The notes under the pieces were generated by a model, which was not told the origin of the DNA, made no database searches, and was given only the letters and a program-made list of their open reading frames with translations. This document shows, piece by piece, positions 31,714 to 48,302 of a stretch of 64,000 nt of DNA. The stretch is from Aquabacterium sp. OR-4 (GTDB lineage: Bacteria; Pseudomonadota; Gammaproteobacteria; Burkholderiales; Burkholderiaceae_C). Each line of letters starts with the position of its first letter. Within the stretch, counting starts at the first letter, position 1. Location: NCBI RefSeq assembly GCF_025290835.2, contig NZ_JAOCQD020000002.1, forward strand, positions 1,488,001 through 1,552,000. Reading direction: 5' to 3'. The translations under genes and the position numbers were made by a program.

Positions 31714-31731
31714 TTCGTCGCTTCCGACGAT
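31714..31731. promoter_or_regulatory. Predicted LuxR operator, site 1
   Basis: TTCGTCG-CTTC-CGACGAT lies in the divergent region between the LuxR regulator and the SDR operon. A TAGACT -10-like hexamer follows at 31754-31759 toward the SDR. The same element is at 40781 and 48285. Confidence 0.6.
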
Positions 31732-31903
31732 GGCCGCGGGCCGGGGGCCTGCCTAGACTGGTGGTGCAGCCCGGTGCGCACAGCGCCCGCGCGCGCCGAT
31801 CCACCGTGGCCGACCAGCCTGCGCAGGTGCCCGCAAGCGCCCGACCCGGCCGGCGCAGGCCCTGCGCCCCGTTTCTCACAACGCCTCTTCAAGGACCCGA
31901 TCC

Positions 31904-32686
31904 ATGCAGCTCGATTCGTCGATCACCGCCGTCGTCACCGGTGGCGCCTCCGGCCTGGGTGCCGCCACCGCCCGGCGCCTGGCGTCCAAGGGCGTGAAGG
32001 TGGCCTTGTTCGACCTGAACGAGGCCGCCGGCGAGGCCCTGGCCCAAGAGATCGGCGGCGTGTTCTGCAAGGTCGATGTCACCAGCGAGGAGCAGGTGGC
32101 CGCCGGTTTTGCCAAGGCCCGCGCCGCGCTCGGCCAGGAGCGCGTACTGGTCAACTGCGCCGGCACCGGCAACGCAGTCAAGACCGCCAGCCGCGACAAG
32201 ACCAGCGGCGAGATCAAGCACTTTCCGCTGGCCAACTTCGACCGCATCATCCAGATCAACCTGGTGGGCACCTTCCGCTGCATCGCCCACTCGGCTGCCG
32301 GCATGCTGACCCTGGCACCGCTGGCCGATGGCGAGCGCGGCGCCATGGTGTGCACCGCCAGCGTGGCCGCGGTGGATGGCCAGATGGGCCAGGCGTCCTA
32401 TTCGGCCAGCAAGGCCGGCATCGTGGGCATGACGCTGCCGATCGCCCGCGACCTGATGGGCGAAGGCATCCGCATCAACACCATCCTGCCGGGCATCTTC
32501 AACACCCCGCTGCTGCAGGGCGCGCCCGACAACGTGAAGGCCGCGCTGGCGGCCTCGGTGCCCTTCCCCAAGCGCCTGGGCAACCCCGACGAATACGCCC
32601 AGCTGGCCGAGACCATGCTCAGCAACGGCTACTTCAATGGCGAGAGCGTGCGCCTGGACGGCGCCATCCGCATGGCTCCGAGATAA
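31904..32686 (+). CDS. Short-chain dehydrogenase, 3-hydroxyacyl-CoA (HSD17B10-like)
   Basis: 260 residues. NAD binding is at VVTGGASGLGAATARRL. The NNAG motif is NCAG. The catalytic Ser is in VCTASVAAVDGQMGQ and YxxxK in ASYSASKAG. The insertion ASRDKTSGEIKHFPLANFDRII and the end segment PFPKRLGNPDEYAQL are those of the 3-hydroxy-2-methylbutyryl-CoA / 17beta-HSD type 10 group. It would oxidise a hydroxyacyl-CoA, perhaps 2-methyl-branched, with NAD+. An AAGGA site precedes the ATG. It is first gene of the operon facing the regulator. Confidence 0.9.
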   Translation: MQLDSSITAVVTGGASGLGAATARRLASKGVKVALFDLNEAAGEALAQEIGGVFCKVDVTSEEQVAAGFAKARAALGQERVLVNCAGTGNAVKTASRDKTSGEIKHFPLANFDRIIQINLVGTFRCIAHSAAGMLTLAPLADGERGAMVCTASVAAVDGQMGQASYSASKAGIVGMTLPIARDLMGEGIRINTILPGIFNTPLLQGAPDNVKAALAASVPFPKRLGNPDEYAQLAETMLSNGYFNGESVRLDGAIRMAPR

Positions 32687-32687
32687 G

Positions 32688-32770
32688 TCCCCCCCGAAGC
32701 GGCTGCGCCGCCTCCCCCCCAGGGGGCATCGCCAGCGGCCCGGCAGAGCCGGATCCGCGGCGATTGCTTG
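32688..32770 (+). repeat. Intergenic palindromic repeat, family A (copy 2)
   Basis: It starts one base after the SDR stop: CCCCCCGAAGCGGCTGCGCC, then CCAGCGGCCCGGC with a GCCGG arm. It separates the SDR from the thiolase. Confidence 0.85.
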
Positions 32771-32819
32771 GTTTGACCGAGGCATGCATCGAATGCCTCG
32801 CTTCTTGAAAGGATCTGCA

Positions 32820-34010
32820 ATGTCCGAAGCCTTCATCGTCGCCACCGCCCGCACCGCTGGTGGCCGCAAGGGTGGCCGCCTGTCGGGCTGGCACCCGGCC
32901 GATCTGGCCGGCCAGGTGCTCAACGCCCTGCTCGACCGCAGCGGCATCGACCCCGCCGCGGTGGACGATGTGATCATGGGCTGCGTGGGCCAGGCCGGCG
33001 AGCAGGCCACCAACATCGCGCGCAATGCGGTGCTGGCCAGCCGCCTGCCCGAGAGCGTGCCGGCCACCTCGGTGGACCGCCAGTGCGGCTCGTCGCAGCA
33101 GGCGCTGCACTTTGCCGCCCAGGCGGTGATGAGCGGCACGATGGACTGCGTGATCGCCGCCGGCGTGGAGAGCATGAGCCGCGTGCCCATGGGCCTGCCC
33201 AGCACGCTGGCGCGCAAGGCCGGCTTCGGCTTCTACATGAGCCCGGCCATGCAGGCGCGCTACCCCGGCATCGAGTTCAGCCAGTTCATGGGTGCCGAGA
33301 TGCTGGCCAGCAAGCACGGCCTCAGCCGCGAGGAGCTCGACCGCTTTGCGCTGCTGAGCCACCAGCGTGCCATCGCCGCCACCGAGGCCGGCCGCTTCAA
33401 GGGCGAGATCGTGCCGGTGGCCATGAAGCGCGTGGACAAGGACGGCGTCTACAGCGAAGACGGCAGCCTGCACACCGCCGACGAAGGCATCCGCCACGAC
33501 GCCACCTACGAGAGCATTGCCGGCGTCAAGCTGCTGCAGGAAGGGGGCCGCCTCACCGCCGCCAGCGCCAGCCAGATCTGCGACGGCGCCACCGGCGTGA
33601 TGGTGGTCAACGAGCGCGGCCTGAAGGCTCTGGGCCTGAAGCCACTGGCCCGCGTGCACCACATGACCGTGACCGGCGGCGACCCGGTGGTGATGCTCGA
33701 GGCCCCGATCGCCGCCACGCAAAAGGCCCTGGCCCGCGCCGGCATGTCGATCAACGACATCGACCTGTACGAGGTCAACGAGGCCTTTGCCTCGGTGCCT
33801 GTGGCCTGGCTGAAGGTGCTGGGTGCCGACCCCGCGCGCCTGAACATCCACGGCGGCGCCATCGCGCTGGGCCATCCGCTGGGCGGCTCGGGCACCAAGC
33901 TGATGACCACCCTGGTCAACGCGCTGCAGCAGACCGGCAAGCGCTACGGCCTGCAGACCATGTGCGAAGGCGGCGGCATGGCCAACGTGACCATCGTCGA
34001 ACGCCTGTAA
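32820..34010 (+). CDS. Acetyl-CoA C-acyltransferase (thiolase)
   Basis: A 396-residue thiolase. The nucleophile is C89 (VDRQCGSSQQALH), followed by VNEAFASVPVAW, HGGAIALGHPLGGSG and TMCEGGGMANVTIVE. The SVDRQCGSSQ type is common in thiolases of aromatic- or steroid-type degradation clusters. The ATG at 32820 follows GAAAGGA. It cleaves the ketoacyl-CoA made by the SDR upstream. The next gene starts 19 bp downstream. Confidence 0.94.
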   Translation: MSEAFIVATARTAGGRKGGRLSGWHPADLAGQVLNALLDRSGIDPAAVDDVIMGCVGQAGEQATNIARNAVLASRLPESVPATSVDRQCGSSQQALHFAAQAVMSGTMDCVIAAGVESMSRVPMGLPSTLARKAGFGFYMSPAMQARYPGIEFSQFMGAEMLASKHGLSREELDRFALLSHQRAIAATEAGRFKGEIVPVAMKRVDKDGVYSEDGSLHTADEGIRHDATYESIAGVKLLQEGGRLTAASASQICDGATGVMVVNERGLKALGLKPLARVHHMTVTGGDPVVMLEAPIAATQKALARAGMSINDIDLYEVNEAFASVPVAWLKVLGADPARLNIHGGAIALGHPLGGSGTKLMTTLVNALQQTGKRYGLQTMCEGGGMANVTIVERL

Positions 34011-34029
34011 GGCAGGCCGCCCGCCCGCC

Positions 34030-35106
34030 ATGGCCAGCGCCTTCACGCCGGCCTCCGCCACCACGCAGGCCTCCGCCTCCACGCAGGCCCCCGCTAGCGC
34101 GCTGGCCGATGGCCTGGCGCGCACGCTGGGCGGCCGCATCACGCGGCTGCGCCGGCTGTCGGGCGGCGCCAGCCAGGAGACCTGGGCCTTGGCGCTGCAA
34201 TGCGCTGACAGCGCGGCCGTCGACCTGATCCTGCGCCGCCAGCCACCGGGTGGCCAGCAGCGCTCGGCCGCCAACGCCGGCCTGGCCGCCGAAGCCGCGC
34301 TGATCACGCTGGCCGGCCGCCACGGTGTGCCGGTGCCGGCCATCCACCAGGTGCTGACGCCCGCCGATGCGCTGGGCCAGGGCTTCGTGATGCAGTGCCT
34401 GCAGGGCGAGACCCTGGGCCGGCGCATCGCCACCGACCCCGCGCTGGCCGAGGCCCGCGCCACGCTGGCCTGGCAGTGCGGCCAGACGCTGGCGCGCCTG
34501 CACGCCATCGCGCCACAGCAGCTGCCCGCGGGCCTGCGCCGCGCCGGCCCGGCCGACGAGCTGGCGCACTACCGCGCCTGGCACCAGGGCCACGGCACGG
34601 CGCGCCCGGTGTTCCAGCTGGCCTTTGACTGGCTGGCCCGGCGCCTGCCGGCCGACACCGCCGCGCCGGTGCTGGTGCATGGCGACTTTCGCAATGGCAA
34701 CCTGATGATCGATGCCCAGGGCCTGCGCGGCGTGCTCGACTGGGAGCTGGCCCATGTGGGCGACCCGATGGAAGACCTGGGCTGGCTGTGCGTGCCCAGC
34801 TGGCGCTTCGGCCAGGTCGCGCTGCCGGTCGGCGGCTTCGGCACGCTGGATCAGCTGCTGGCCGGCTATCAATCCGCCGGGGGTCGGGCCGACCGCGAAC
34901 GCATCCGCTGGTGGACGGTGATGGGCGCGCTGAAGTGGGGCGTGATCTGCGAGAGCATGCTGCAGGCCTGGCTGAGCGGCGCCGAGCGCGAGGTCGAAAA
35001 AGCCGCCATCGGCCGCCGCGCCAGCGAGGCCGAGATCGACCTGCTGACGCTGATCGTGCCCGAGGCCAACCCGCACCACGCCCCAGGCGCGCAGCACCAT
35101 GCATGA
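34030..35106 (+). CDS. Phosphotransferase family protein (APH/ACAD10-like)
   Basis: A 358-residue kinase-like fold protein: Gly-rich LSGGASQETWAL, catalytic loop VLVHGDFRNGNLMID, metal-binding GVLDWELAHVGDPMEDLGW. Relatives form the N-terminal part of human ACAD10/11, which phosphorylate 4-hydroxyacyl-CoA during beta-oxidation. By that analogy it may activate a 4-hydroxyacyl-CoA here. Its stop region overlaps the next gene. Confidence 0.85.
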   Translation: MASAFTPASATTQASASTQAPASALADGLARTLGGRITRLRRLSGGASQETWALALQCADSAAVDLILRRQPPGGQQRSAANAGLAAEAALITLAGRHGVPVPAIHQVLTPADALGQGFVMQCLQGETLGRRIATDPALAEARATLAWQCGQTLARLHAIAPQQLPAGLRRAGPADELAHYRAWHQGHGTARPVFQLAFDWLARRLPADTAAPVLVHGDFRNGNLMIDAQGLRGVLDWELAHVGDPMEDLGWLCVPSWRFGQVALPVGGFGTLDQLLAGYQSAGGRADRERIRWWTVMGALKWGVICESMLQAWLSGAEREVEKAAIGRRASEAEIDLLTLIVPEANPHHAPGAQHHA

Positions 35107-35533
35107 CGCCCCCAGCCCGGCGCAGATCACCGAGGCCGCCACGCTGTTTCTGCGCGAGCGGGTGATGCCCGCGCTGGGCAGCGGCCAGGCCGCCCCACCC
35201 GAGGCCCAGGCCGCCGCCAGCGCCATGGCCGCGGCCACCGCCCACCATGCCCGCGTGGCCGCCAACCTGCTGGACATCGCGCGCCGCCAGCTGCTGGAAG
35301 ACCCGGCCGTGGCCGCCGCCGAAGTGCAGCGCCTGCAGGCCTTGCTGGACCGCACCGACACCGACCTGGCCACACTGAACCAGGCCCTGGCCGAGGCCAT
35401 TGCCGAGGGCCGCCTGGGCCTGGCCACACCCGGCCTGGCCGGGCATCTGTGGCACACCACGCTGGCCAAGCTGGCGGTGGACCAGCCGAACTACGCCACC
35501 TACCGCCACGCGCTGCACGGGGCAGCGGGCTGA
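35099..35533 (+). CDS. DUF6285-type small protein
   Basis: 144 residues, mostly helical and Ala-rich (HDAPSPAQITEAATLFLRERVMP, TLAKLAVDQPNYATYRH). It overlaps the phosphotransferase gene by eight bases. Small proteins of this pattern are regularly found next to ACAD10-like phosphotransferases and may be partners. The family name is from memory of the pattern, not from a search. Confidence 0.7.
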   Translation: MHDAPSPAQITEAATLFLRERVMPALGSGQAAPPEAQAAASAMAAATAHHARVAANLLDIARRQLLEDPAVAAAEVQRLQALLDRTDTDLATLNQALAEAIAEGRLGLATPGLAGHLWHTTLAKLAVDQPNYATYRHALHGAAG

Positions 35534-35569
35534 GCCGCCCTGCCGGCGCGGCCGCTTCCGGAGACACCC

Positions 35570-36409
35570 ATGACCGAACCCGCAGCCCCCCACACCGCCC
35601 CCCTGCGCGAGGAGCGCGATGGCGATGTGGCCATCCTGGTGCTGGCCGATGCCAAGCGCCTGAACCCGCTGGGCCAGCCCTTGCAGAACGCCTTGCGCGA
35701 ACGCCTGCGCGCGCTGGCCGCCGACCGCAGCGTGCGCGCCCTGGTGATCACCGCCGATGGCCGCGGCTTCTGCGTGGGCGCCGACCTCAGCGCGATGAAC
35801 AGCGCGCTGGCCGGCGAGGCATCGACCGACACGCGCACGCTGGGCAACAAGACGGCCGACACCATGCACGCGGCCTCCAACCGGCTGATCTCGGACATCC
35901 GCCGCCTGCCCTTTCCGGTGCTGAGCGCGATCAACGGCGCCTGTGCCGGGGCGGGCGTGGGCCTGGCGCTGGCGGCCGACATCGTGATCGCCGCGCGCTC
36001 GGCCTACTTCTACCTGCCCTTCATGGCCAAGCTGGGCATCGTGCCCGACCTGGGCACCACCTGGTTTCTGGAGCGTCTGGTGGGCCGCGGCCGTGCCACC
36101 GCATTGACGCTGCTGGGCGAGAAACTGCCCGCCGAGAAGGCCACCGAATGGGGCATTGCCTGGGCCTGTGTGGACGACGACGCTCTGCGTGATGAGGCCT
36201 TGAAGCTGGCTCACCGCCTGGCTGCCCTGCCCCCGCAAGCCGCGCTGGAAACCCGCCGCGCCTACGACGCCGCCGCGCACAACAGCCTCGACGCCCAGAT
36301 GGGCTACGAGGCCGAGCGGCAGCGTGAACTGATCGATGCGCCGAGTTTTGCGGAAGGGGTGCAGGCCTTCATTGGGAAGCGGGAGCCGCGTTTTTCTGGG
36401 CGGTCTTGA
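35570..36409 (+). CDS. Enoyl-CoA hydratase/isomerase, PaaG-like
   Basis: A 279-residue crotonase: GRGFCVGADLSAM and SAINGACAGAGVGLALAADIVIAA form the oxyanion hole, FMAKLGIVPDLGTTWFLERLVGR is the PaaG-type active-site stretch, and the C-terminus is KREPRFSGR. PaaG isomerises and hydrates unsaturated ring-derived acyl-CoA; hydration of a normal enoyl-CoA is equally possible. Last gene of the SDR operon. CGGAG precedes the ATG. Confidence 0.9.
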   Translation: MTEPAAPHTAPLREERDGDVAILVLADAKRLNPLGQPLQNALRERLRALAADRSVRALVITADGRGFCVGADLSAMNSALAGEASTDTRTLGNKTADTMHAASNRLISDIRRLPFPVLSAINGACAGAGVGLALAADIVIAARSAYFYLPFMAKLGIVPDLGTTWFLERLVGRGRATALTLLGEKLPAEKATEWGIAWACVDDDALRDEALKLAHRLAALPPQAALETRRAYDAAAHNSLDAQMGYEAERQRELIDAPSFAEGVQAFIGKREPRFSGRS

Positions 36410-36455
36410 GTTTGCTACTTCAGTTGGCAGTCGAAGGTCTGCGCATGGCCAAGGC

Positions 36456-36544
36456 CGCCGGGTAACCGCCCGGCTCCATGTCCCCCGCCGAGGTGCTCTC
36501 GCACCTCGGCTCCTCCTTTACTTACGCCGGGCGGTCACCCGACG
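36456..36544. repeat. Nested palindrome: 19-bp outer arms around a perfect 10-bp hairpin
   Basis: Arms at 36456-36474 and 36526-36544 match as inverted repeats at 17 of 19 positions. They flank GCCGAGGTGC-tctc-GCACCTCGGC (36487-36510). It lies 47 bp past the PaaG-like stop. It may be a terminator or a mobile palindromic repeat. Confidence 0.7.
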
Positions 36545-36597
36545 TCCTCGTCCCGAGGCACCGTGGCATACCGCCATCCGCATGCCTCGACCGTGCG

Positions 36598-36839: not shown

Positions 36840-36881
36840 TTGCTCAACACCCAGCAAGCCCAACCCAGCAAGAGCCAAACG

Positions 36882-38450
36882 CTATCGAGGCGCCCAGACG
36901 TTCCGCACGCCATCGTTCGTCACCACACCCCGACGCCCGATGAAGTCCTCCGCCTGCATCGCCTCGAACAAGGATGCGTCAACAGGCGTGTTGGCGATGA
37001 AGCGCGTGCCATCGAGCAGGCGGCCGAACAACACCCCTGCCGACGGCCCCGAGCGCTCATGCATCACGGTATAGGTCTCGACCACCGCCTCACCCGCTGC
37101 CAACGCGGCAAACACGGGTGAAGGAATCGAGGCGTTCAACCGCGATTGCAAGAGAGAAGGCGGCTCCGGTGCAAAGGCACGCGATGGACGCTCGGTGGAA
37201 TAGATGCCCGCCGAATGCTTGGTGAGGTAGTTGCCGTTGGCCGTGACCAGACCATACGACGCACGATCACCGCGCAGCACCTGCATCATCTGCGCGATCG
37301 CGTGCGTCACGTAGTTGTTGCCCGGCCCGCCGAAGTAGGGCAGACCGCCCGTCACGGTGAGGCCGCGCGGGTCATCGGGCTGCAGTCCCAGCGCGCCATA
37401 GGCCACCGCCACCGCCGACGAGAAGCAGCTGTAGATGTCCAGGTGCCGCATGTCGGCCACCTGCTTGCCGGCCATCGCGAACGCCTGCTCGAACACCGCC
37501 GCCATGGCCGGTGCACTGTGAAAGTCGCGCCGCTGGCTCACATGCCAGTGGTCGTGCGCATCGGCGCAGCCGTGCAGGAACACCCAGCGGTCTTCGGGCA
37601 CGCCCAGTGCGCGGGCCAGGGCCACGCTGGTCAGGATGACGGCCGCGCCCTGGTCGATGTAGGCATTGGCACTCATCAGCCGCGTGTAGGGCCAGCCGAT
37701 CCAGGGGTTGTCGGGGCCGGGCGTGGCGATCTGCGCGGCATCAAAGCCTGCGCGCCGGTCGGCCAGCGGGTTGGCGGCGGCCACCTTGGCAAAGGGTTCA
37801 AGCCAGCGGCCCATCGCGGCCTGGTGCGCGCCGATGCTGCGGCCCAGGTGGTGGCGGATCGCGTTCTCGAACATCGGGTACATCACGATGGCCGCGCGGG
37901 CGCCGTGGGCGTTTTCCACATCCGACCAGCCGCGCCGCGCATCGCCCCAGGCCTCGGGTGTGCCGCCGGCATCCTCGTGCCAGCCCAGCGGCACCTGCGC
38001 GCGCTGGCCCATGCGCCAGGTGGCCAGGGCCTCGGCGCCCACCACCAGCGCGGCCTGCAGGCGGCCGGCGGCCACCTGTTCGGCCAGGCGGTTGATGCTC
38101 CACTGCGGCATGTTGCCGCCGGGGTGGGTGTAGACGAGCTGCTGCGCCGCCTCGGCGCCCAGGCGCTGCGCCACGCTGCGCGGCAGGTTGGTGAAGCGGC
38201 CTGCGGGATCGACGAAGCGCGGGCTGGTGTCGGCAAACAGGCGGATCACCACCACGGCCTGCAGCGCGGCCAGCAGGGCCGTCGCCGGGCCGGCATCCGC
38301 GGCCGCGGCGCGCGCCGCATCCACCATCAGCGGCAGCGGGCCGCGTGCGGTGCGCGGATCGCCGCCCCGCTCGGGCCGCTGCGTGATCTGGCCGGCGCCC
38401 ACCAGCACCGGCGTGCGGGCATCCGCATCGCCGGTGTGGACGCTCACCAT
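36882..38450 (-). CDS. Thiolase-like acetyl-CoA acetyltransferase with C-terminal extension
   Basis: 522 residues of the SCP2-thiolase-like family, longer than classical thiolases by an added C-terminal domain of about 80 residues. Visible are TPVLVGAGQITQRPE, ARRLDIYSCFSSAVAVA-type active Cys (LDIYSCFSSA), PYFGGPGNNYVTH and VTANGNYLTKHSAGIYST. The classical GHPxG motif is absent, so it may be a thiolase-like protein working with a partner. Start M18 of the longer frame was chosen because the upstream part is repeat sequence. It follows the 38545 hydratase. Confidence 0.85.
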   Translation of the reverse strand: MVSVHTGDADARTPVLVGAGQITQRPERGGDPRTARGPLPLMVDAARAAAADAGPATALLAALQAVVVIRLFADTSPRFVDPAGRFTNLPRSVAQRLGAEAAQQLVYTHPGGNMPQWSINRLAEQVAAGRLQAALVVGAEALATWRMGQRAQVPLGWHEDAGGTPEAWGDARRGWSDVENAHGARAAIVMYPMFENAIRHHLGRSIGAHQAAMGRWLEPFAKVAAANPLADRRAGFDAAQIATPGPDNPWIGWPYTRLMSANAYIDQGAAVILTSVALARALGVPEDRWVFLHGCADAHDHWHVSQRRDFHSAPAMAAVFEQAFAMAGKQVADMRHLDIYSCFSSAVAVAYGALGLQPDDPRGLTVTGGLPYFGGPGNNYVTHAIAQMMQVLRGDRASYGLVTANGNYLTKHSAGIYSTERPSRAFAPEPPSLLQSRLNASIPSPVFAALAAGEAVVETYTVMHERSGPSAGVLFGRLLDGTRFIANTPVDASLFEAMQAEDFIGRRGVVTNDGVRNVWAPR

Positions 38451-38463
38451 GGCGACAAGCTTG

Positions 38464-38544
38464 GGCGCAGTCCCGCCCGGCCGCCCCAAGGGACTGCGCA
38501 CCCCCTCGGGGGGCAGCGAACGCGGTTCGCGTGGGGGTGGACAG
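38464..38544 (-). repeat. Intergenic palindromic repeat, family C (copy 1)
   Basis: On the minus strand, directly after the hydratase stop: CCCCCACGCGAACCGC, CCCCCCGAGGGGG, then the core hairpin GCGCAGTCCC...GGGACTGCGC around TTGGGGCGGCCGGGC. Related elements are at 51029 and 62762. Confidence 0.75.
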
Positions 38545-39333
38545 TCATCGTCCCACCCAGCGCGGTGCGCGCTTCTCGATGAAGGCCAGCGGGCCTTCCT
38601 TGAAGTCTTCGCTCTGCATGTTGCGCGCCTGGCCTTCTTCGGACATCTGGCGCAGCTCGGCGTCGGTCTTGTCGAAGGCGGCGCGGGCCACGGCCAGGCT
38701 TTCGCGCACGGCCACCGGCGCGTTGACGGTGATGCGCGCGGCCATGGCCTGCGCGGCCTCGATCAGCCGCGCCGGCTCGCACAAGGCGTTGACCATGCCG
38801 AACGCGTGCGCCTGCTCGGCCGTGATCGGCTCACCGGTGAGGATGGCCTCGCGGGCGATGGCCGGCGGCAGGGCGCGCGGCAGCCGGTACAGGCCACCGG
38901 CCGAGGCGATGAGCCCGCGCTTGACCTCGGGCACGCCAAAGCGCGTGCCGGTGGCGGCCACGATCAGGTCGCAGGCCAGCGCGATCTCGCAGCCCCCGGC
39001 CAGCGCCGGGCCGTTGACCGCGGCGATCCAGGGCTTGCGCCTGGGCGCGTGCACAAAGCCGGCGAAGCCGCCGCGGTCGGTGCGCAGCTCGTGGCCGCGG
39101 CCGGCCGAGATGGCCTTCAGGTCGGCGCCGGCGCAAAAGGCCTCGCTGCCCGTGCCGGTGAGGATCACGGCCCAGATGTCGTCGTCGGCCTCGGTGACAT
39201 CGATGGCCGCCTCCAGGCCGCGCGCCACGTCGCCGTTGACGGCATTGCGCGCCTCGGGGCGCACAAGGGTCACCAGCGCCACATGGCCGGGCAGGATGTC
39301 GAGGTGGATGGCGGGGGTCAGTTCACGGGGCAT
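38545..39333 (-). CDS. Enoyl-CoA hydratase (crotonase family)
   Basis: 262 residues with the full hydratase pattern: GHVALVTLVRPEARNAVN, GSEAFCAGADLKAIS, AAVNGPALAGGCEIALACDL, FGVPEVKRGLIASAGGLYRLP with the conserved PE glutamate, and the C-terminal KRAPRWVGR. MPRELTP was taken as start; the frame runs upstream through the GGTT repeat. It is the middle gene of a minus-strand trio with the binding protein and the thiolase-like protein. Confidence 0.92.
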   Translation of the reverse strand: MPRELTPAIHLDILPGHVALVTLVRPEARNAVNGDVARGLEAAIDVTEADDDIWAVILTGTGSEAFCAGADLKAISAGRGHELRTDRGGFAGFVHAPRRKPWIAAVNGPALAGGCEIALACDLIVAATGTRFGVPEVKRGLIASAGGLYRLPRALPPAIAREAILTGEPITAEQAHAFGMVNALCEPARLIEAAQAMAARITVNAPVAVRESLAVARAAFDKTDAELRQMSEEGQARNMQSEDFKEGPLAFIEKRAPRWVGR

Positions 39334-39355
39334 GTGGGTGGTGTTCCGTTGAGAG

Positions 39356-39377
39356 GGTTGGTTGGTTGGTTGGTTGG
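39356..39377 (+). repeat. GGTT tandem repeat, (GGTT)5GG
   Basis: Five GGTT units plus GG, just upstream of the 38545 hydratase start, on the strand opposite to its coding strand. Six GG runs with TT spacers could form a two-tier G-quadruplex. Confidence 0.95.
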
Positions 39378-39380
39378 GTG

Positions 39381-39504
39381 AGGGCTTGAGCGGCTTTCGT
39401 CGCAAGCGGGCTCAGGGTGGTTCGAGCAACGCAGCCGTACACCCGTACGGCGAGTCGCGCGGGGCCGCCATGTGCCCGCGCAGCAGAAAAACGCCAAGCG
39501 CTCA
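39381..39504 (-). repeat. 124-bp palindromic repeat, family B (copy 1)
   Basis: Near-identical to 57643-57766. On the minus strand it begins at the stop codon of the binding-protein gene (TGAGCGCTTG). The ends are inverted repeats (GCTTGGCGTTTTTC / GAAAGCCGCTCAAGC), with an internal GCCGTAC-GGGT-GTACGGC hairpin. Confidence 0.9.
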
Positions 39505-40751: not shown

Positions 40752-40757
40752 ATGCTA
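40752..40757 (-). promoter_or_regulatory. -10-like box for the minus-strand binding-protein gene
   Basis: TAGCAT on the minus strand, 23 bases downstream of operator site 2, the same arrangement as TAGACT after site 1. Confidence 0.4.
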
Positions 40758-40780
40758 GGAAACCCGTGACGCCGCCCTCA

Positions 40781-40798
40781 ATCGTCGGAAGCGACGAT
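40781..40798. promoter_or_regulatory. Predicted LuxR operator, site 2 (perfect palindrome)
   Basis: ATCGTCGGAAGCGACGAT, 7-bp arms and a GAAG centre, in the 222-bp region between two divergent binding-protein genes. -10-like boxes lie 21-23 bases away on both sides. Confidence 0.65.
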
Positions 40799-40819
40799 GT
40801 TGCCGCGCCCCCCCCTGCC

Positions 40820-40825
40820 TACCAT
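40820..40825 (+). promoter_or_regulatory. -10-like box for the plus-strand binding-protein operon
   Basis: TACCAT in CCTGCCTACCATCGTGG, close in sequence and spacing to CCTGCCTAGACTGGTGG after site 1. Confidence 0.4.
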
Positions 40826-40905
40826 CGTGGCGCAGGGTGCCCGCACTTCGGCCGGCGCTCTTTCCTCCCCCCGTTGAACCCAACGTCCGCCGTCTGGAGA
40901 ACCGA

Positions 40906-42123
40906 ATGTCTGCCCCCCTGTCGCGCCGCCACCTGATCGCCGCCGTGGCCGCCGCCTCCGCCCTGGCTGCTGCCCTGCCGGCGCAGGCCCAGAAGAAGTA
41001 CTCCACCGGCGCCACCGACACCGAGATCAAGCTCGGTCACATCGTGCCGTACTCGGGCCCCGTGTCGGCCTACGGCACCATCGGCAAGACCATCAGCGCC
41101 TACTTCACCAAGGTCAATGCCGAAGGCGGTGTGAACGGCCGCAAGGTCAAGGTCATCTCGCTGGACGACGCCTACAACCCGGCCAAGACCGTGGAGGTGA
41201 CACGCAAGCTGGTGGAAGAAGAAGAGGTGCTGGCCATGTTCGCGCCGCTGGGCACGGCCCAGAACGCCGCCATCCAGAAGTACATGAACGCCAAGAAGGT
41301 GCCGCACCTGTTTCTGGCCACCGGCGCCTCGCGCTGGGGCAACCCCAAGGAGTTTCCTTGGACCATCGGCTGGCAGCCCACCTACACGGCCGAGGGCCGC
41401 GCCTACGCCCGCCAGATCCTGGAGACCAAGCCCAACGCCAGGATCGCCATCCTGATGCAGAACGACGACTTCGGCAAAGACTACCTGCGCGGCTTCATGG
41501 AGGTGCTGGGCGACAAGGCCAAGACCATGGTGGTGGCCAGCCTCACCTACGAGACCAGCGACCCCACCATTGACAGCCAGCTGCTCAGCCTGAAGGCCAG
41601 CGGCGCCGACGTGTTCTTCGACATCACCACGCCCAAGTTCGCGGCCCAGGCCATCCGCAAGGTGGCCGAGCTGGGCTGGAAGCCCACGCACTACCTGGCC
41701 AGCGTGTCGCAGTCGGCGGCCGCGGTGCTCAAGCCCGCGGGCTTTGACAACGCCACCGGCGTCATCAGCTCGGCCTATCTGCGCGACCCGTCCGACCCGG
41801 CCCACGCCGGCACCAAGGAACTGGCCGACTACCTGGCCTTCATGAAGCAGTACTACCCGGCCGGCGACCCCAACGACACGCTCAACGTCATCGGCTACTC
41901 GCTGTCGCAGACCATGGTGCACACGCTCAGGCAGTGCGGCGACAACCTCACGCACGAGAACCTGATGAAGCAGGCCGCCAACCTGAGCCTGACGCTGCCC
42001 ATGCTCTACCCCGGCATCGAGGTCAAGACCACGCCGGAAGACTTCTACCCGGTCAGCCGCATCCAGCTGATCCGCTTCAACGGCAGCCGCTACGAGCCCA
42101 TCGGCAAGGTGCTGCCGGGCTGA
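40906..42123 (+). CDS. Branched-chain-amino-acid-type ABC solute-binding protein (orphan)
   Basis: A 405-residue type I binding protein with a Tat-like signal (SRRHLIAAVAAASALAAALPAQAQ). The core is EIKLGHIVPYSGPVSAYGTIGKTISAYFTKVNAEGGVNGRKV, ILMQNDDFGKDYLRGF and a C-terminal lobe ending RYEPIGKVLPG. It begins the plus-strand operon to the ligase, two dehydrogenases, thioesterase and hydratase, and probably supplies its substrate. It is divergent from a second binding protein of the same family. Confidence 0.92.
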   Translation: MSAPLSRRHLIAAVAAASALAAALPAQAQKKYSTGATDTEIKLGHIVPYSGPVSAYGTIGKTISAYFTKVNAEGGVNGRKVKVISLDDAYNPAKTVEVTRKLVEEEEVLAMFAPLGTAQNAAIQKYMNAKKVPHLFLATGASRWGNPKEFPWTIGWQPTYTAEGRAYARQILETKPNARIAILMQNDDFGKDYLRGFMEVLGDKAKTMVVASLTYETSDPTIDSQLLSLKASGADVFFDITTPKFAAQAIRKVAELGWKPTHYLASVSQSAAAVLKPAGFDNATGVISSAYLRDPSDPAHAGTKELADYLAFMKQYYPAGDPNDTLNVIGYSLSQTMVHTLRQCGDNLTHENLMKQAANLSLTLPMLYPGIEVKTTPEDFYPVSRIQLIRFNGSRYEPIGKVLPG

Positions 42124-42195
42124 AGCCGGCCCCCGGCGCACCCGCCGCGGCCCGCCCTGCCGGCCTGCACAACACCCCCACCCGGAGACACCCCC

Positions 42196-43833
42196 ATGCT
42201 GGGCCTGATGCAAGACCGTCCGCTGCTGATCTCGTCGCTGATCGAGCACGCGGCCACCTTCCACCCGACAACAGAGATCGTCAGCCGCCTGCCCGAAGGC
42301 CAGGTGCACCGCAGCACCTGGCGCGGCGTGCGCGACACGGCCAAGCAGGTGGCCCATGCGCTGCAGGGCCTGGGCATCCAGAGCGGTGACCGCGTGGGCA
42401 CGCTGGCCTGGAACTCGTACCGCCACCTGGCGCTGTACTTCGGCGTGTCGGGCTCCGGCGCGGTGCTGCACACGGTCAACCCGCGGCTGTTTCCGGAACA
42501 GATCGACTACATCGTCAACCATGCCGAAGACCAGCTGCTGTTCTTCGACATCACGTTTGCGCCACTGGTCGAGAAGATCGCCCCGCTGCTCAAGACGGTG
42601 AAGCACTTCATCGCGATGACCGACCGCGCCCACATGCCGGCCATCGAGGTGCCCAACTTGCTGTGCTGGGACGAGCTGATCGGCGCGCAGAGCACGCACT
42701 ACACCTGGCCCGAATTTGACGAGCGCACGGCCAGCAGCCTTTGCTACACCTCGGGCACCACCGGCAACCCCAAGGGTGTGCTGTACAGCCACCGCTCGAC
42801 GATGCTGCACACGCTGATGGAGCTGGCGCCCGACACCTTTGGCGTCAGCAGCGAAGAGACCATCATGCTGATCGTGCCGATGTTCCATGCCAATGCCTGG
42901 GGCACGCCCTACGCGGCGGCCATGGTGGGCACCAAGCTCGTGCTGCCCGGGCCGCACCTGGATGGCGCCAGCGTGTATGCGCTGATGCGCGACGAGCGCG
43001 TCACCTTCTCGCAGGGCGTGCCCACGGTGTGGATGATGCTGTTTGGCTACGTGGATGCGAACCCCGGCCTCGACCCGCGCGAGCTGGGCCTCAAGCGCGT
43101 GGGCATCGGCGGCGCCGCCGTGTCGCGCGCCATGCTCGAGCGCTTTGAAACCCAGTTCGGCGCCGAGGTGGTGCAGGGCTGGGGCATGACCGAAACCAGC
43201 CCCATCGGCGTGATCAGCAAGCTGCTCAAGAAGCATGCCGCGCTGCCCGAAGAAGAGCTGGTGAAGATCAAGCTCAAGCAGGGCCGCGGCGTGTGGGGGG
43301 TCGATCTGAAGATCGTCGACGAAGCCGGCCAGGCCCTGCCCTGGGACGGCGTGGCCTATGGCCACCTGCATGTGCGCGGCCCCTGGATCACCAGCGGCTA
43401 CTTCAAGAGCGAGGGCGGCCCGGTGCTCGATGCCGAGGGCTACTTTCCCACCGGCGATGTGGCCACCATCGACCCCGACGGCTTTCTGCAGCTGGTGGAC
43501 CGTGCCAAGGACGTGATCAAGAGCGGCGGCGAGTGGATCAGCTCGATCGACCTCGAGAACGCCGCGATGAGCCACCCCGCCGTGGCCGAGGCCGCGGTGA
43601 TCGGCATTGCCCACCCCAAGTGGCAGGAGCGGCCGCTGCTGGTGGTGGTGAAGCGCGCAGGGCAGGACGTGACGCGCGAGCAGATGCTGGAGCACCTGGG
43701 CGCGCGCGTGGCCAAGTGGTGGCTGCCCGACGACGTGGCCTTCGTGGCCGAGCTGCCGCACACCGCCACCGGCAAGATCCTCAAGACCCGGCTGCGCGAG
43801 CAGTTCAAGCAGCACGTGCTGCCGACGATCTGA
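42196..43833 (+). CDS. Acyl-CoA synthetase (AMP-forming), long-chain type
   Basis: A 545-residue ligase that activates a carboxylic acid with ATP and CoA. The AMP-binding motif is LCYTSGTTGNPKGVLYSHRS. Others are VPMFHANAWGTPYAAAM, GWGMTETSPIG, the YFPTGDVATIDPDGFLQLVDRAKDVIKSGGEWIS hinge, and the catalytic Lys in HTATGKILKTRLRE. Length and motifs fit the medium/long-chain FadD-like group; the substrate is unknown. CGGAG precedes the ATG. Confidence 0.94.
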   Translation: MLGLMQDRPLLISSLIEHAATFHPTTEIVSRLPEGQVHRSTWRGVRDTAKQVAHALQGLGIQSGDRVGTLAWNSYRHLALYFGVSGSGAVLHTVNPRLFPEQIDYIVNHAEDQLLFFDITFAPLVEKIAPLLKTVKHFIAMTDRAHMPAIEVPNLLCWDELIGAQSTHYTWPEFDERTASSLCYTSGTTGNPKGVLYSHRSTMLHTLMELAPDTFGVSSEETIMLIVPMFHANAWGTPYAAAMVGTKLVLPGPHLDGASVYALMRDERVTFSQGVPTVWMMLFGYVDANPGLDPRELGLKRVGIGGAAVSRAMLERFETQFGAEVVQGWGMTETSPIGVISKLLKKHAALPEEELVKIKLKQGRGVWGVDLKIVDEAGQALPWDGVAYGHLHVRGPWITSGYFKSEGGPVLDAEGYFPTGDVATIDPDGFLQLVDRAKDVIKSGGEWISSIDLENAAMSHPAVAEAAVIGIAHPKWQERPLLVVVKRAGQDVTREQMLEHLGARVAKWWLPDDVAFVAELPHTATGKILKTRLREQFKQHVLPTI

Positions 43834-43853
43834 CTCACAGGAGCATCCAGCCC

Positions 43854-45050
43854 ATGCAGGATCTGCTGACGCCCGAAGAACAGGCCTTCCGCGACGAGGT
43901 GCGCGCCTTTCTGGCCGAGCACCTCACGCCCGCACTGCGCGAGGCCGGCCGGCGCTGCTCGGGCATCTTTGCCGAGTACCCGCAGGGCAATGACTGGCAC
44001 CGCGTGCTGGCCGGCCGGGGCTGGAGCGTGCCGCAGTGGCCGGTGGCCTTTGGCGGCTGCGACTGGACACCGATGCAGCACTACCTGTTTGCCGCCGAGC
44101 TGGCCGCCGCCGACGCACCGCCGCGCGCGCCCATGGGCCCCGGCATGGTGGCGCCGGTGCTCATCGCCTTCGGCACACCCGCGCAGCAGCAGCGCTGGCT
44201 GCCGGGCATCCGCGATGGCAGCGACTACTGGTGCCAGGGCTACAGCGAGCCGGGCTCGGGCTCCGATCTGGCCAGCCTGCAGTGCAAGGCCCGGCGCGAT
44301 GGCGACCACTGGGTGATCGACGGCACCAAGATCTGGACCACGCATGCGCAGTTTGCCAACCGCATGTTCTGCCTGGTGCGCACTTCCAGCGCCGGAAAGC
44401 CGCAGACCGGCATCAGCTTTCTGTGCTTTGACATCGCCACGCCGGGCATCACCATCCGGCCGATCCACAGCCTGTCGGGTGACCACGAGCTGAACCAGGT
44501 GTTCTTCGACAACGTGCGCGTGCCGCTGGACAGCCTGATCGGCCAGGAGAACCAGGGCTGGACCATCGCCAAGTATCTGCTGCAGCACGAGCGTGGCGGC
44601 GCCTACTCGCCCAGCCTGCGCGGCCGCTGGCGCCGCGTGGCGCAGGCCCTGGATGCCGCCTTCAGCGGCCACCGGGCGGCCGCGCCTGAAGCGCAGCAGC
44701 TGCGGCTCGAACTGGCCGATCTGCACTGCCAGCTCGATGCGCTGCAGGCGCTCGAGCTGCGCACGCTGCGCGCCCAGGCCGCGGGGGCCGAGCGCGGCAT
44801 CTCGCCCTCGATGGGCAAGCTGCTGGGCACCGAACTGAAGCAGGCCCTCACCGCCCTGCATGTGCGCATTGCCGGCAACGCTGCCGTGCCGCACGCCCCG
44901 CTGCACCAGGCCGGCGCACATGCGCTGGCGCTCAGCGAAGACGGCCTGTTCGCCATCTCGTCCTACCTCAACGACCGCGCGGCCTCGATCTACGCCGGCA
45001 CCAACGAAGTGCAGCGCAACATCATCGCCGCTCACCTGCTGGCGGGATGA
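43854..45050 (+). CDS. Acyl-CoA dehydrogenase, large subunit-like
   Basis: 398 residues: N-terminal helices (LTPEEQAFRDEVRAFLAEHL), FAD segment YSEPGSGSDLASLQ, VIDGTKIWTTHAQFANRMFCLVRT, and C-terminus AASIYAGTNEVQRNIIAAHLL. The usual Glu of YEGTxE is Ala (YAGT), as in one subunit of the alpha2beta2 dehydrogenases of actinobacterial steroid catabolism. The next gene is a second dehydrogenase, so a heterotetramer is plausible. It follows the ligase by 20 bp with a CAGGAG site. Confidence 0.9.
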   Translation: MQDLLTPEEQAFRDEVRAFLAEHLTPALREAGRRCSGIFAEYPQGNDWHRVLAGRGWSVPQWPVAFGGCDWTPMQHYLFAAELAAADAPPRAPMGPGMVAPVLIAFGTPAQQQRWLPGIRDGSDYWCQGYSEPGSGSDLASLQCKARRDGDHWVIDGTKIWTTHAQFANRMFCLVRTSSAGKPQTGISFLCFDIATPGITIRPIHSLSGDHELNQVFFDNVRVPLDSLIGQENQGWTIAKYLLQHERGGAYSPSLRGRWRRVAQALDAAFSGHRAAAPEAQQLRLELADLHCQLDALQALELRTLRAQAAGAERGISPSMGKLLGTELKQALTALHVRIAGNAAVPHAPLHQAGAHALALSEDGLFAISSYLNDRAASIYAGTNEVQRNIIAAHLLAG

Positions 45051-45052
45051 GC

Positions 45053-45134
45053 GCCCCCCGAAGCGCCTTCGGCGCCTCACCCCAGGGGGCACCGCCAGCG
45101 GCCCGTCCAAGCCGGTTCCGCGGCGGTCGCTGGC
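45053..45134 (+). repeat. Intergenic palindromic repeat, family A (copy 3)
   Basis: It begins two bases after the dehydrogenase stop: CCCCCCGAAGCGCCTTCGGC with CCAGCGG and CGCTGG arms. It lies between the two paired dehydrogenase genes. Confidence 0.85.
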
Positions 45135-45186
45135 TTGCCGCCCTGCCCTGCCGCCCCTGTGCTGCTTTGCCAACCGGACGACCCAC

Positions 45187-46347
45187 ATGACTGCCCCACG
45201 AGACGACGCCACCGACGCCCTGCGCGACAGCCTGGCGCGCTGGCTGGCCGACCGCATCGACCTGAACCACCACGCCCGCGCCGATGCGCCGCCGGCCGGC
45301 CCCGCCTGGGCCGGCCTGGCCAGCGATCTGGGCCTGCTGGGTGCCGGCTTCACAGAAGGCGCTGGCGGCCTGGCCGCCGATGCCGCCGAGGCCTGGCGCA
45401 ACCACCTGGCGATCTGCGAGACCCTGGGCGAATGGCTCAGCGCCGAGCCCTACATCGGCAGCGCGGTGGTGGGCGGCGGCCTGCTGCAGCGCGCCGGCAC
45501 GGCCACCGCGCAGGCGGTGCTGGCCGAGCTGATCGACGGCCGCGCCCTGCTGGCCTGGGCCCATGCCGAACCTGGCGCGCGCGGCGACCCGGCCGATGTC
45601 TCGGCGGCGCTGCTGCCCGGTGAAGGCCGGGCCGAATGGCTGCTGCATGGCCGCAAGACGGCGGTGGTGGCCGCGCCCTGGGCCACGCACCTGGTCGTCA
45701 GCGCGCGCCGTGCCGGCCAGGCGGGCGATGCGGCGGGCCTCGACCTGATCCTGCTGCCGCTCAACGCCGCCGGCATCAGCCGCCGCGACACGCGCACGCT
45801 GGACTGCGGCGTGGCCAGCGAAATCGCCTTCGACGGCGTGGCCGTGGCCCAGGCCGATCTGCTGGCGCCTGCGGGCCAGGCCGGCCCGGCGATCGCCCGC
45901 GCGCTGGACGAGGCCGCGCTGGCCCTGTGCGCCGAAAGCCTGGGCACCACGCGGCGCCTGTTCGATGCCACGCGCAGCCACCTGCGCGAGCGCCAGCAGT
46001 TCGGCCAGCCGCTGGCCGCGTTCCAGGTGCTGCAGCACCGCCTGGCCGACATGCACATCGCGCGCGAGCTGGCCGCCGCGCTGGTGGCCGCGGTGGGCGT
46101 GCAGATCGCCGACGCGACGCTCACGCCCGAGGCGCGGGCGCTGGCCGTGTCATCGGCCAAGGTGGCGGTGGGCAAGGCCTGCCAGCGCGTGGGCGAGCAG
46201 GCGGTGCAGATGCACGGCGGCATGGGCGTGACCGAAGAGCTGGCAGTGGGCCGCTTCTTCCGCCGTGCGCTGCAGATCGAGCGCAGTGCCGGCAGCAGCG
46301 GGCAGCACCTCTTGCGCATCGTGTCGCTTCAGCACTCGTCGCCATGA
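45187..46347 (+). CDS. Acyl-CoA dehydrogenase, small subunit-like
   Basis: A 386-residue dehydrogenase that lacks much of the usual N-terminal FAD region (there is no clear TEPxxGSD) but keeps the C-terminal helical domain: LCAESLGTTRRLFDATRSHLRERQQFGQPLAAFQVLQHRLADM and QMHGGMGVTEELAVGRFFRR. This division is typical of the second subunit in two-gene acyl-CoA dehydrogenases. It is translationally coupled to the thioesterase (ATGA overlap). Confidence 0.88.
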   Translation: MTAPRDDATDALRDSLARWLADRIDLNHHARADAPPAGPAWAGLASDLGLLGAGFTEGAGGLAADAAEAWRNHLAICETLGEWLSAEPYIGSAVVGGGLLQRAGTATAQAVLAELIDGRALLAWAHAEPGARGDPADVSAALLPGEGRAEWLLHGRKTAVVAAPWATHLVVSARRAGQAGDAAGLDLILLPLNAAGISRRDTRTLDCGVASEIAFDGVAVAQADLLAPAGQAGPAIARALDEAALALCAESLGTTRRLFDATRSHLRERQQFGQPLAAFQVLQHRLADMHIARELAAALVAAVGVQIADATLTPEARALAVSSAKVAVGKACQRVGEQAVQMHGGMGVTEELAVGRFFRRALQIERSAGSSGQHLLRIVSLQHSSP

Positions 46348-47309
46348 AACGCGAAGCCTGGCGCCGTGATCCGGCGGCCTACCCGTTCCAGACCGAGATC
46401 GCCCCACGCTGGTCGGATGTGGACACGCTGCGCCACCTGAACAATGTGGCGCTGATGGGCCTGCATGGCGAAGCCCGCATGCGCTGGCTGGCCGCCTGCC
46501 TGGGCCACAGCGGTGTGGACGCCGACCAGCCGGCGCTGCGCCCGGTGAGCGTGGCCACCGACTTTGTGGCCCAGGCGCACTACCCCACGCCGCTGCAGGC
46601 CGGCGTGCGCCTGCGCGCGGTGGACGCACAAGGCTTCGAGCTGGCCACCGCGCTGTTCCAGCAGGGCCATTGCGTGGGCCTGGCGGCCACGCGCATGGCG
46701 GCCTGGCAGGACGGCCAGCCCGGCCGGCTGCCCAACGCGCTTCATGCGCGGCTCAATCAATGCCTGGCCGATCAGGCCGCCCTGCCGCCGCCGCCCGCCG
46801 GGCACACGCAGGCGCAGGCGCACGACGCGGTGATCGACCACCATGCCGCGCCGGCCGACCGCGATCACGCGCCGCCGCACTGGCATGGCATGACCACGCG
46901 CTACGCCGACCTCGATGCGCACCAGGGCCTCAGCGAGCTGGCGCTGGCACGCCTGGTGGAGCACACCCGGCTGCGCCTGCTGCGCCGCGGCACCACACAC
47001 CGGCCGGGCGCGGGCAACAGCGCGCCGGCGCTGAGCTTTCTGGTGGCGCACCTGCGGCTGCAGCTGCTGGCGCCCGGCTGGGCCGGCGGTGGTGCCTGGC
47101 AGATCGGCGCCGGCGTGGCCGAGCTGGGCCGCAGCGCGATCCGCCTGCGCAGCTGGGTGCGCGATCCCAACGACCTGGTGGCCGTGGCCGACAGCGTGCT
47201 GGTGTGCACCGACCCGGTCTCGCAGCGCCCCGCGCCGCTGGACGAGTCCACACGCCAGGCCATGCAGGCCCTGGCCATGGTGCCGGCGGCCCACCCGGCG
47301 CCGGGCTGA
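46344..47309 (+). CDS. Double-hotdog acyl-CoA thioesterase family protein
   Basis: 321 residues with two hotdog halves: PFQTEIAPRWSDVDTLRHLNNVALMGL in the first (the Asp-His-Asn pattern of 4-HBT-like thioesterases) and HGMTTRYADLDAHQGLSELALARLVEHTR in the second. It would hydrolyse or bind an acyl-CoA intermediate. The start overlaps the preceding stop by four bases. Confidence 0.85.
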   Translation: MKREAWRRDPAAYPFQTEIAPRWSDVDTLRHLNNVALMGLHGEARMRWLAACLGHSGVDADQPALRPVSVATDFVAQAHYPTPLQAGVRLRAVDAQGFELATALFQQGHCVGLAATRMAAWQDGQPGRLPNALHARLNQCLADQAALPPPPAGHTQAQAHDAVIDHHAAPADRDHAPPHWHGMTTRYADLDAHQGLSELALARLVEHTRLRLLRRGTTHRPGAGNSAPALSFLVAHLRLQLLAPGWAGGGAWQIGAGVAELGRSAIRLRSWVRDPNDLVAVADSVLVCTDPVSQRPAPLDESTRQAMQALAMVPAAHPAPG

Positions 47310-47374
47310 CATCCCGGGCTTCGTTCGCTGCCATTTCCACATGCCGGGCCCCCCGGCCCTCACCGGAGACAAGC

Positions 47375-48187
47375 ATGGCCCACGCCGCCGACGACCTGCT
47401 GTTCGAGCGCCAGCCAGACGGCCTGGCCATCCTCACCCTCAACCGCCCGGCGCGCCTGAATGCGCTGACCGGCGACACCGTGCGCGCGCTGTGCGCCCGG
47501 CTCGATGCCGTGGCCGCCGACTCCACGCTGCGGGTGCTGATCATCACTGGCGCCGGCCGCGGCTTCTGCGCCGGCTGGGACCTCACCAGCGGCTCGGCCT
47601 CGGGCAGCGGTGGCAGCGACGACGTGACCGGCTACATGGCCGGGCAAGAGCTGTTTGCCGGCATGGTCAAGCGCGTGCGCGCGCTCGACAAGGTGGTGAT
47701 CGCCGCGGTCAACGGCGTGGCCGTGGGCGCCGGCCTGGCGCTCACGCTGGCCAGCGACATCCGCCTCGCGGCGCGCTCGGCCAGCTTCCACATCGGGGCC
47801 ATCCGCATCGGCCTGACGGCGGGTGAATGTGGCATCAGCTACCACCTGCCACGCCTGGTGGGCGCGGCGCGCGCCTTCGAGCTGATGCTCACCGGCCGCC
47901 CGGTGCCAGCCGATGAGGCCGGCCAGATCGGCCTGGTGGCCCGCGTGGTGGACGACGCCGCGCTGCTGGCCGAGGCCCTGGCCATGGCCCGGGCCGTGCT
48001 GCGCAACAGCCCCTATGCCACGCGCCACACCAAGCAGCTGATGTGGGCCAACCTCGAGGCGCCCAGCCTCGATGCCGCCATCGAGCTGGAAAACCGAGCC
48101 CAGGTATTGGCCCTGTGCACGCAGGATTTCAAGGAGGCCGCCAAGGCCTTTGCCGAGAAACGCCCGCCGGTGTTCACCGGGCGTTGA
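47375..48187 (+). CDS. Enoyl-CoA hydratase/isomerase family protein
   Basis: 270 residues: [39 protein letters not shown] and the distinctive [23 protein letters not shown], which is also found in the 52351 paralogue as FIRIGLTACDMGVSYFLPRMVGA. The C-terminus is KRPPVFTGR. It ends the binding-protein operon. CGGAG precedes the ATG. Confidence 0.92.
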
Positions 48188-48272
48188 CCCACCCCCGTAG
48201 CGCCTGCGGCGCCTCCCCCTCAAGGGGGCGCCGCCAGTGGCCCGGCGAAGCCGGTTCCACGACGGCCGCTGG
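48188..48272 (+). repeat. Intergenic palindromic repeat, family A (copy 4)
   Basis: Directly after the hydratase stop: CCCACCCCCGTAGCGCCTGC, then CCAGTGG and CCGCTGG arms (a G-T wobble keeps the pairing). Operator site 3 follows within 15 bp. Confidence 0.85.
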
Positions 48273-48284
48273 GTCAACAGTCAC

Positions 48285-48302
48285 TTCGTCTCTTCCGACG
48301 AT
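48285..48302. promoter_or_regulatory. Predicted LuxR operator, site 3
   Basis: TTCGTCT-CTTC-CGACGAT, one arm imperfect, 55 bp upstream of the racemase start. An AACATC stretch lies 23 bases downstream at the -10 position. Confidence 0.5.

Follow-up and report, generated by a model that had tools for sequence, protein, structure and literature searches.

Does a palindrome that recurs in three promoter regions of one bacterial locus serve as the operator of the regulator encoded beside it? The question is raised by a stretch of 64,000 nucleotides from Aquabacterium sp. OR-4 (contig NZ_JAOCQD020000002.1, positions 1,488,001 to 1,552,000; hereafter the window), in which the gene of a MalT-type LuxR regulator of the LAL family lies next to predicted operons for acyl-CoA catabolism (Table 1). 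The sequence-only reading of the window had placed the palindrome at 31714, 40781 (perfect) and 48285, and direct reading of the bases bears out all three positions. From the comparisons described below, we consider it very probable that the MalT-type regulator, encoded divergently, recognises the palindrome as its operator and acts as an activator.

Palindromic Sites in the Window and in the Genome

Site 1 is near-palindromic and lies between the divergent genes of the regulator and of a short-chain dehydrogenase/reductase (SDR). Site 2, with perfect 7-base arms, is found between two divergent operons, and site 3 precedes a further predicted operon. With site 2 taken in its minus-strand reading, TCGTC-K-CTTCC-GACGA is common to all three sites. 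The hallmark of the sites is their common asymmetric core CTTCC, and their likeness thus exceeds that of the dyad alone. The arms alone were discarded as a test, as they are too frequent in coding DNA: at up to three mismatches they gave 19 matches in the window vs. 2.5 expected, and a match with a single mismatch was found at 50507, within the reading frame of a ligase.

The source genome (6,634,285 bases in 7 contigs) was scanned with the 16-mer TCGTCGCTTCCGACGA, which occurred twice exactly (both times in the window), twice with one mismatch and three times with two mismatches. The one-mismatch matches were window site 3 (at 48286) and a site on contig C3 (C3:837502-837517). Thus, the motif is not randomly scattered: at up to one mismatch there are only four places in 6.63 Mb, and each of them precedes genes for acyl-CoA catabolism. 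The fourth site, TTCGTCACTTCCGACGAT, stands on contig C3 82 bases upstream of an acyl-CoA dehydrogenase gene, which is followed by a second acyl-CoA dehydrogenase gene and an FMN oxidoreductase gene, and the hexamer CAGCAT stands 22 bases past its 18-mer. The regulon is therefore predicted to extend past the window to this site. The three two-mismatch matches, on C1 and C3, were set aside after the nearby reading frames had been inspected, two of them being within predicted reading frames and the third having no filter-passing reading frame nearby. At up to three mismatches no excess was found genome-wide (133 matches vs. 206 for the reversed control), so the signal is confined to close matches, and our use of the source genome was limited to matches with at most one mismatch.

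Conservation beside Orthologous Regulators

For each regulator ortholog, up to 20 kb of surrounding sequence was taken as its locus. A first set of loci contained 57 sites at up to two mismatches in 620 kb, with sites in 31 of 32 loci from 28 genomes, three of the 32 loci (L070, L071, and L078) having been cut to take in a site that was already known. Forty shuffled palindromes, used as a control, averaged 0.9 sites, with 15 for the top one and 4 for the second. Three loci with more distant regulators (32–33% identity, tblastn) had no site. In a scan of named genomes, for which the best 80 loci were kept, sites were found near the regulator in genomes of Variovorax, Pseudacidovorax, Hydrogenophaga, Noviherbaspirillum, Ramlibacter, and Roseateles as well as Cupriavidus, Marinobacter, Pseudomonas migulae, and Zhongshania; Steroidobacter and Bradyrhizobium had two-mismatch sites only.

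When both locus sets were joined (104 loci, sites at up to two mismatches), the presence of a site followed the identity of the regulator. A site was found in 43 of 44 loci at identities of at least 55%, 23 of 27 at 44–55%, 7 of 14 at 36–44%, and 2 of 19 below 36%; with a regulator at least 44% identical, 66 of 71 loci had one. It should be noted that the duplicates L092, L093, L102, L104, L121, L128, and L143, together with L098, were dropped from the site-to-gene table, the gene-match count and the identity and helix counts. L138, L078, and L079 were dropped from the gene-match count and the identity and helix counts, and L108 from the gene-match count of 86 loci.

Among 299 genomes of the family, 45 matched the regulator at E ≤ 1e-60 and 29, including the source genome, at an identity of at least 46%. 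The motif built from the source genome only, TCGTCNCTTCCGACGA, occurred in 5 of 28 further genomes of the family that have the regulator vs. 3 of 270 that lack it (p = 2.4e-4). A broader motif, TCGTCGCWTCNGACGA, chosen after the loci had been inspected, was found in 18 of 29 genomes with an ortholog vs. 7 of 270 without one (p = 3.8e-16). The dyad is thus conserved beside orthologous regulators and, as described under Predicted Target Genes, upstream of orthologous genes. Of the two outcomes that the sequence-only reading had named as refuting it, a random occurrence of the motif across the genome and a lack of conservation upstream of orthologous genes, neither was observed.

Promoter Geometry

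The -10-like hexamers TAGACT, TACCAT, and TAGCAT of the sequence-only reading are present beside sites 1 and 2, and only its AACATC at site 3 is better replaced by CAACAT, one base to the left. Among 65 sites with 130 flanks, TANNNT was found in 32 flanks at a distance of 22 or 23 bases from the 16-mer. It occurred a single time at 21 bases, a single time at 24 bases, and four times elsewhere across offsets 0–53. In a set of 178 sites with 355 flanks, TANNNT was found at 22 bases in 51 flanks and at 23 bases in 45 (96 of 355), and the other 58 offsets held 45 in total, or about 0.8 per offset. The latter set, which the four distant loci L085 and L087–L089 stand outside, was collected with the looser dyad TCGTCNNWWNNGACGA as well, so that weaker sites were included, and both sides of each site were counted. 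The commonest bases in the 96 hexamer-bearing flanks were (T/C)CGTCG-(C/G)-(T/A)(T/A)-C-(C/G)-GACGA-T.

If the hexamer is taken as positions -12 to -7, the dyad is centred at -42.5 or -43.5. As a sequence prediction, this position agrees with that expected at a class II activator-dependent promoter, where the site is centred about -40 to -43, beside or over the -35 region. LuxR-type proteins that activate in class II fashion use this arrangement. The fixed spacing to the -10 hexamer supports the earlier placement of an activator site near -35. Seventeen bases upstream of the three rightward -10 hexamers in the window stand TGGCCG, ATGTTG, and TGGCCG, which are unlike TTGACA. Such hexamers flank site 2 on both sides, at distances from the 16-mer of 24 bases (left) and 22 bases (right), and this site should therefore drive both divergent operons.

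In five Cupriavidus loci (L123, L126, L127, L130, and L149), paired dyads were found 67–81 bases apart near 7946–8170, between divergent acyl-CoA dehydrogenase-like and ligase-like genes. This arrangement suggests cooperative binding at some promoters.

The Regulator and Its Recognition Helix

By its domain content, the regulator, whose start codon was picked by us, belongs to the LAL/MalT family. It contains a MalT-type TPR region (PF17874, 99.8 bits, cut-off 45) and a C-terminal GerE domain (PF00196, 62.4 bits, cut-off 23.5). It also has an NTPase part near the N-terminus, with the Walker A sequence APAGFGKTT at residues 65–73, which is conserved with small changes in an alignment of 16 sequences; the Pfam NTPase matches fall below their cut-offs. 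Among solved structures the best match is MalT (8bob chain C, 8bob_C; E 8.3e-74), which covers profile positions 4–401. Of the earlier MalT-type label, the MalT-like domains stand. Identity as MalT itself was rejected, as the NCBIfam model NF003420 gave 337.9 bits vs. a cut-off of 537 and acyl-CoA genes, not maltodextrin operons, are found behind the sites.

The recognition helix in the GerE helix-turn-helix is STVRTHLR. Among regulators less than 44% identical, a site was found in 8 of 10 loci with a helix of the form T[VI]R[TS]HLR vs. 1 of 23 with other helices (Fisher p = 2.7e-5); L077, in which the regulator is cut off ahead of the helix, is absent from this table. Locus L156, whose regulator is only 33% identical, has the helix TTVRTHLR and an exact site, and no site was found in the loci of four relatives 40–41% identical with the helix TVKSHLR or TVKFHLR. 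Since the presence of the site follows the type of helix, the DNA site is tied to the DNA-binding part of the MalT-type protein.

Predicted Target Genes

Table 1. Coordinates of the regulator gene, predicted operators, predicted -10 hexamers and predicted operons in the window.
Feature	Position	Strand	Basis or remark
MalT-type LuxR regulator (LAL), 916 residues	28856..31606	-	Pfam, alignment, MalT structure match
Operator site 1 (predicted)	31714..31731	+	sequence TTCGTCGCTTCCGACGAT
Operator site 2 (predicted)	40781..40798	.	sequence ATCGTCGGAAGCGACGAT, perfect arms
Operator site 3 (predicted)	48285..48302	+	sequence TTCGTCTCTTCCGACGAT
Predicted -10 hexamer TAGACT	31754..31759	+	22 bases from site 1 18-mer
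Predicted -10 hexamer TAGCAT, leftward operon	40752..40757	-	23 bases from site 2 18-mer
Predicted -10 hexamer TACCAT, rightward operon	40820..40825	+	21 bases from site 2 18-mer
Predicted -10 hexamer CAACAT (weak)	48325..48330	+	22 bases from site 3 18-mer
Predicted site-1 operon: SDR (3-hydroxyacyl-CoA dehydrogenase-like), thiolase, APH-family phosphotransferase, DUF6285, enoyl-CoA hydratase	31904..36409	+	gene order
Predicted site-2 leftward operon: periplasmic binding protein BP1, enoyl-CoA hydratase, thiolase-like type 1 protein	36882..40683	-	gene order
Predicted site-2 rightward operon: periplasmic binding protein BP2, acyl-CoA ligase, two acyl-CoA dehydrogenases, thioesterase-like (4HBT_2) protein, enoyl-CoA hydratase	40906..48187	+	gene order
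Predicted site-3 operon: alpha-methylacyl-CoA racemase-like family III CoA-transferase, acyl-CoA ligase, acyl-CoA dehydrogenase, enoyl-CoA hydratase	48358..53139	+	gene order

The sequence-only reading had assigned to the regulon about 17 genes from 31.9 to 53.1 kb. The window operons are retained as predicted targets, the count of Pfam-supported genes is 18, and the C3 site lies outside the window. The best solved relatives of the SDR are 3-hydroxyacyl-CoA dehydrogenases, type II included, that of the racemase is alpha-methylacyl-CoA racemase (E 1e-129), and that of the acyl-CoA dehydrogenase in the site-3 operon is a long-chain acyl-CoA dehydrogenase (E 2e-102). The solved relatives of BP1 and BP2 are mostly binding proteins of the leucine/branched-chain amino acid type, and they point to no firm ligand.

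In 86 ortholog loci, the SDR was matched at an identity of at least 70% in 41. At an identity of at least 55%, the thiolase was matched in 37 loci, the site-3 acyl-CoA dehydrogenase in 34, the racemase in 33, the site-2 ligase in 13, BP2 in 8, and the APH-family phosphotransferase and DUF6285 protein in one each. In ortholog loci, the genes directly behind sites include ones related to the SDR, thiolase, racemase, site-2 ligase, and BP2. In several loci the site precedes a long protein, and the one that was checked (L060) is a multifunctional 3-hydroxyacyl-CoA dehydrogenase. The APH-family phosphotransferase and DUF6285 pair of the site-1 operon (34030-35533) had matches in only 2 and 1 of the 86 loci, respectively.

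Alternative Explanations

The palindrome could instead be the operator of another regulator, such as a FadP-like TetR repressor or the partner, in a two-component system, of the histidine kinase encoded at 53 kb, and the MalT-type gene a mere neighbour. Known proteobacterial fatty-acid regulons are run by TetR and GntR proteins in the part of a comparative study drawn upon here (PMC5343134), and the window contains a TetR gene at 26427 as well as the histidine kinase gene at 53024. However, neither of these two had a match (E ≤ 1e-20, half length) in the 86 ortholog loci of about 20 kb, regulators encoded elsewhere not having been examined; the fixed spacing of 22–23 bases to the -10 hexamer suits an activator, and the presence of the site tracks the recognition helix of the MalT-type protein. 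We therefore regard another regulator as very unlikely. A regulon of a FadP/AtuR-type TetR repressor was likewise set aside, the window TetR being unmatched in the 86 loci and other TetR genes not having been searched for. The histidine kinase gene (53024-54427), which encodes PAS and HisKA_3 domains, stands right after the site-3 operon.

A regulator that binds the site and mainly represses or autoregulates would be in keeping with the position of site 1, only 108 bases from the regulator start, and some LuxR-type proteins do act as repressors. Where TANNNT occurs, however, the dyad is centred near -42.5, upstream of the -10 hexamer, and at site 1 the flank facing the regulator has no TANNNT at 22–23 bases, so that repression or autoregulation as the main role appears highly improbable. 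Chance or codon bias in a G+C-rich genome can be all but dismissed as the source of the sites: the recurrence of the arms alone in coding DNA, as at 50507 with one mismatch, and the lack of an excess at three mismatches speak for it, but the conservation, the spacing and the rarity in the genome at up to one mismatch contradict it.

Several observations nevertheless weigh against the palindrome as the operator of the MalT-type regulator. Five of the 71 loci with a regulator at least 44% identical had no site at up to two mismatches, and the short contigs L098 and L138, which were uncounted, also had none, which gives a fuller figure of 66 of 73; many of the loci come from close relatives and hence are not independent. 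The majority of flanks (259 of 355, both sides of sites and weaker sites included) had no TANNNT at 22–23 bases, and the -10 hexamers at site 3 and the C3 site start with C. The search for other regulators covered only the loci of about 20 kb, and the site may belong to one encoded elsewhere. The looser motif is also present in the 7 family genomes mentioned above that have no ortholog; its reversed control turned up in 10 of the same 270 genomes (12 of all 299), so that 7 of 270 is at background level. Yet one of the seven, genome G227, of the same genus as the window, carries two copies of TCGTCGCATCCGACGA (C8:68960 and C54:181376) and no regulator match at E ≤ 1e-60; it perhaps carries a diverged regulator.

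Proposed Mechanism and Inducer

LAL regulators such as MalT multimerise in dependence on ATP and an inducer, and a need for both is expected of the MalT-type regulator described here. Loaded with ATP and inducer, it would bind the dyad (T/C)CGTC-N6-GACGA, whose centre would lie some 42 to 43 bases ahead of the transcription start. From there it would activate, in class II fashion, a promoter with a -10 hexamer and no recognisable -35. This would switch on the window operons served by sites 1 to 3 and the operon on contig C3.

As for the inducer, 3-hydroxyacyl-CoA dehydrogenase, thiolase, racemase and acyl-CoA dehydrogenase recur as targets, and these enzyme types together serve 2-methyl-branched acyl-CoAs. 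A 2-methyl-branched, isoprenoid-type acid or its CoA ester is therefore proposed as the inducer, which we regard as possible rather than probable. Two findings count against such an acid. The site-2 ligase (42196-43833) passes the NCBIfam model of 3-(methylthio)propionyl-CoA ligase (854.9 bits, cut-off 822), and our confidence in a branched acid was lowered for this reason. In other genomes, sites also precede genes for a Rieske oxygenase, DUF1329 proteins, a TRAP binding protein, a nitroreductase and a nitronate monooxygenase. Given the varied genes behind the sites elsewhere, the substrate may differ between species, and the regulator may serve different hydrophobic substrates across genomes. 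The assignment of the site-2 ligase has no obvious fit with a branched-acid pathway. The Rieske ring-hydroxylase subunit and DUF1329 proteins that the dyad precedes are those of L077:5053-6219, L078:6569-7951, and L137:3658-5109.

Comparison with Known Systems

The regulator resembles MalT of Escherichia coli, AlkS and other LAL proteins in its NTPase part, MalT-type TPR region, C-terminal GerE domain and length of about 900 residues. MalT binds arrays of short asymmetric boxes, in contrast to the inverted repeat of 16–18 bases that is the putative operator here. MalT controls maltodextrin genes, whereas the predicted targets of this regulator are genes for acyl-CoA catabolism, which are neither maltodextrin nor alkane hydroxylase genes. 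LuxR and TraR boxes are dyads of 18–20 bases that are bound by GerE domains and centred near -42.5 at class II promoters. The system described here is like them in having a dyad of similar length, a GerE domain and a dyad centre near -42.5. It differs from them in the sequence of the site and in its sensor, which is an NTPase with a TPR region and not an acyl-homoserine-lactone domain.

FadR, PsrA, FadP, LiuR, and LiuQ mainly repress, and LiuR is of the MerR type. In the part of the comparative study of proteobacterial regulons drawn upon here, these five govern the catabolism of fatty acids or of branched-chain amino acids in many genomes, FadR being of the GntR type and PsrA and FadP of the TetR type, and neither LuxR nor MalT is mentioned in that part (PMC5343134). 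AtuR/RdmA, which controls the degradation of acyclic terpenes and diffusible signal factor (DSF) in Pseudomonas, is described in the part of the report cited as a TetR-family repressor with the 13-base repeats AGCAAGCGCTTGG and CCAAGCGCTTGCT (PMC9973270). In both AtuR/RdmA and the present system, the catabolism of branched or unusual acyl-CoAs is, or is predicted to be, controlled via inverted repeats near the promoter, but the regulator is a TetR-family repressor in the former and a predicted activator of the MalT type in the latter. In the open-access literature, as represented by titles and the starts of abstracts and with subscription journals outside it, there was no account of this motif or of such a LAL regulator, nor did the motif strings occur in the open-access literature in any of five spellings. 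These comparisons suggest that the regulon is undescribed and that its LAL-type predicted activator contrasts with the TetR and GntR regulators known for such cycles.

Taken as a whole, we tentatively propose, with considerable doubt, an undescribed regulon family in the Beta-, Gamma-, and perhaps some Alphaproteobacteria. In its members a MalT-class, ATP-driven receptor would sense a 2-methyl-branched or isoprenoid-type acyl compound and activate its beta-oxidation from one conserved dyad, and the helix T[VI]R[TS]HLR would predict the operator. To our knowledge, few LAL regulators have a known operator. Here a regulator, a putative operator, a promoter geometry and target genes are connected across many genomes, and the link from helix to dyad offers a readable route to the targets of unstudied MalT-type regulators. 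The regulon may thus provide a handle on how environmental bacteria turn on the breakdown of branched or otherwise unusual acids.

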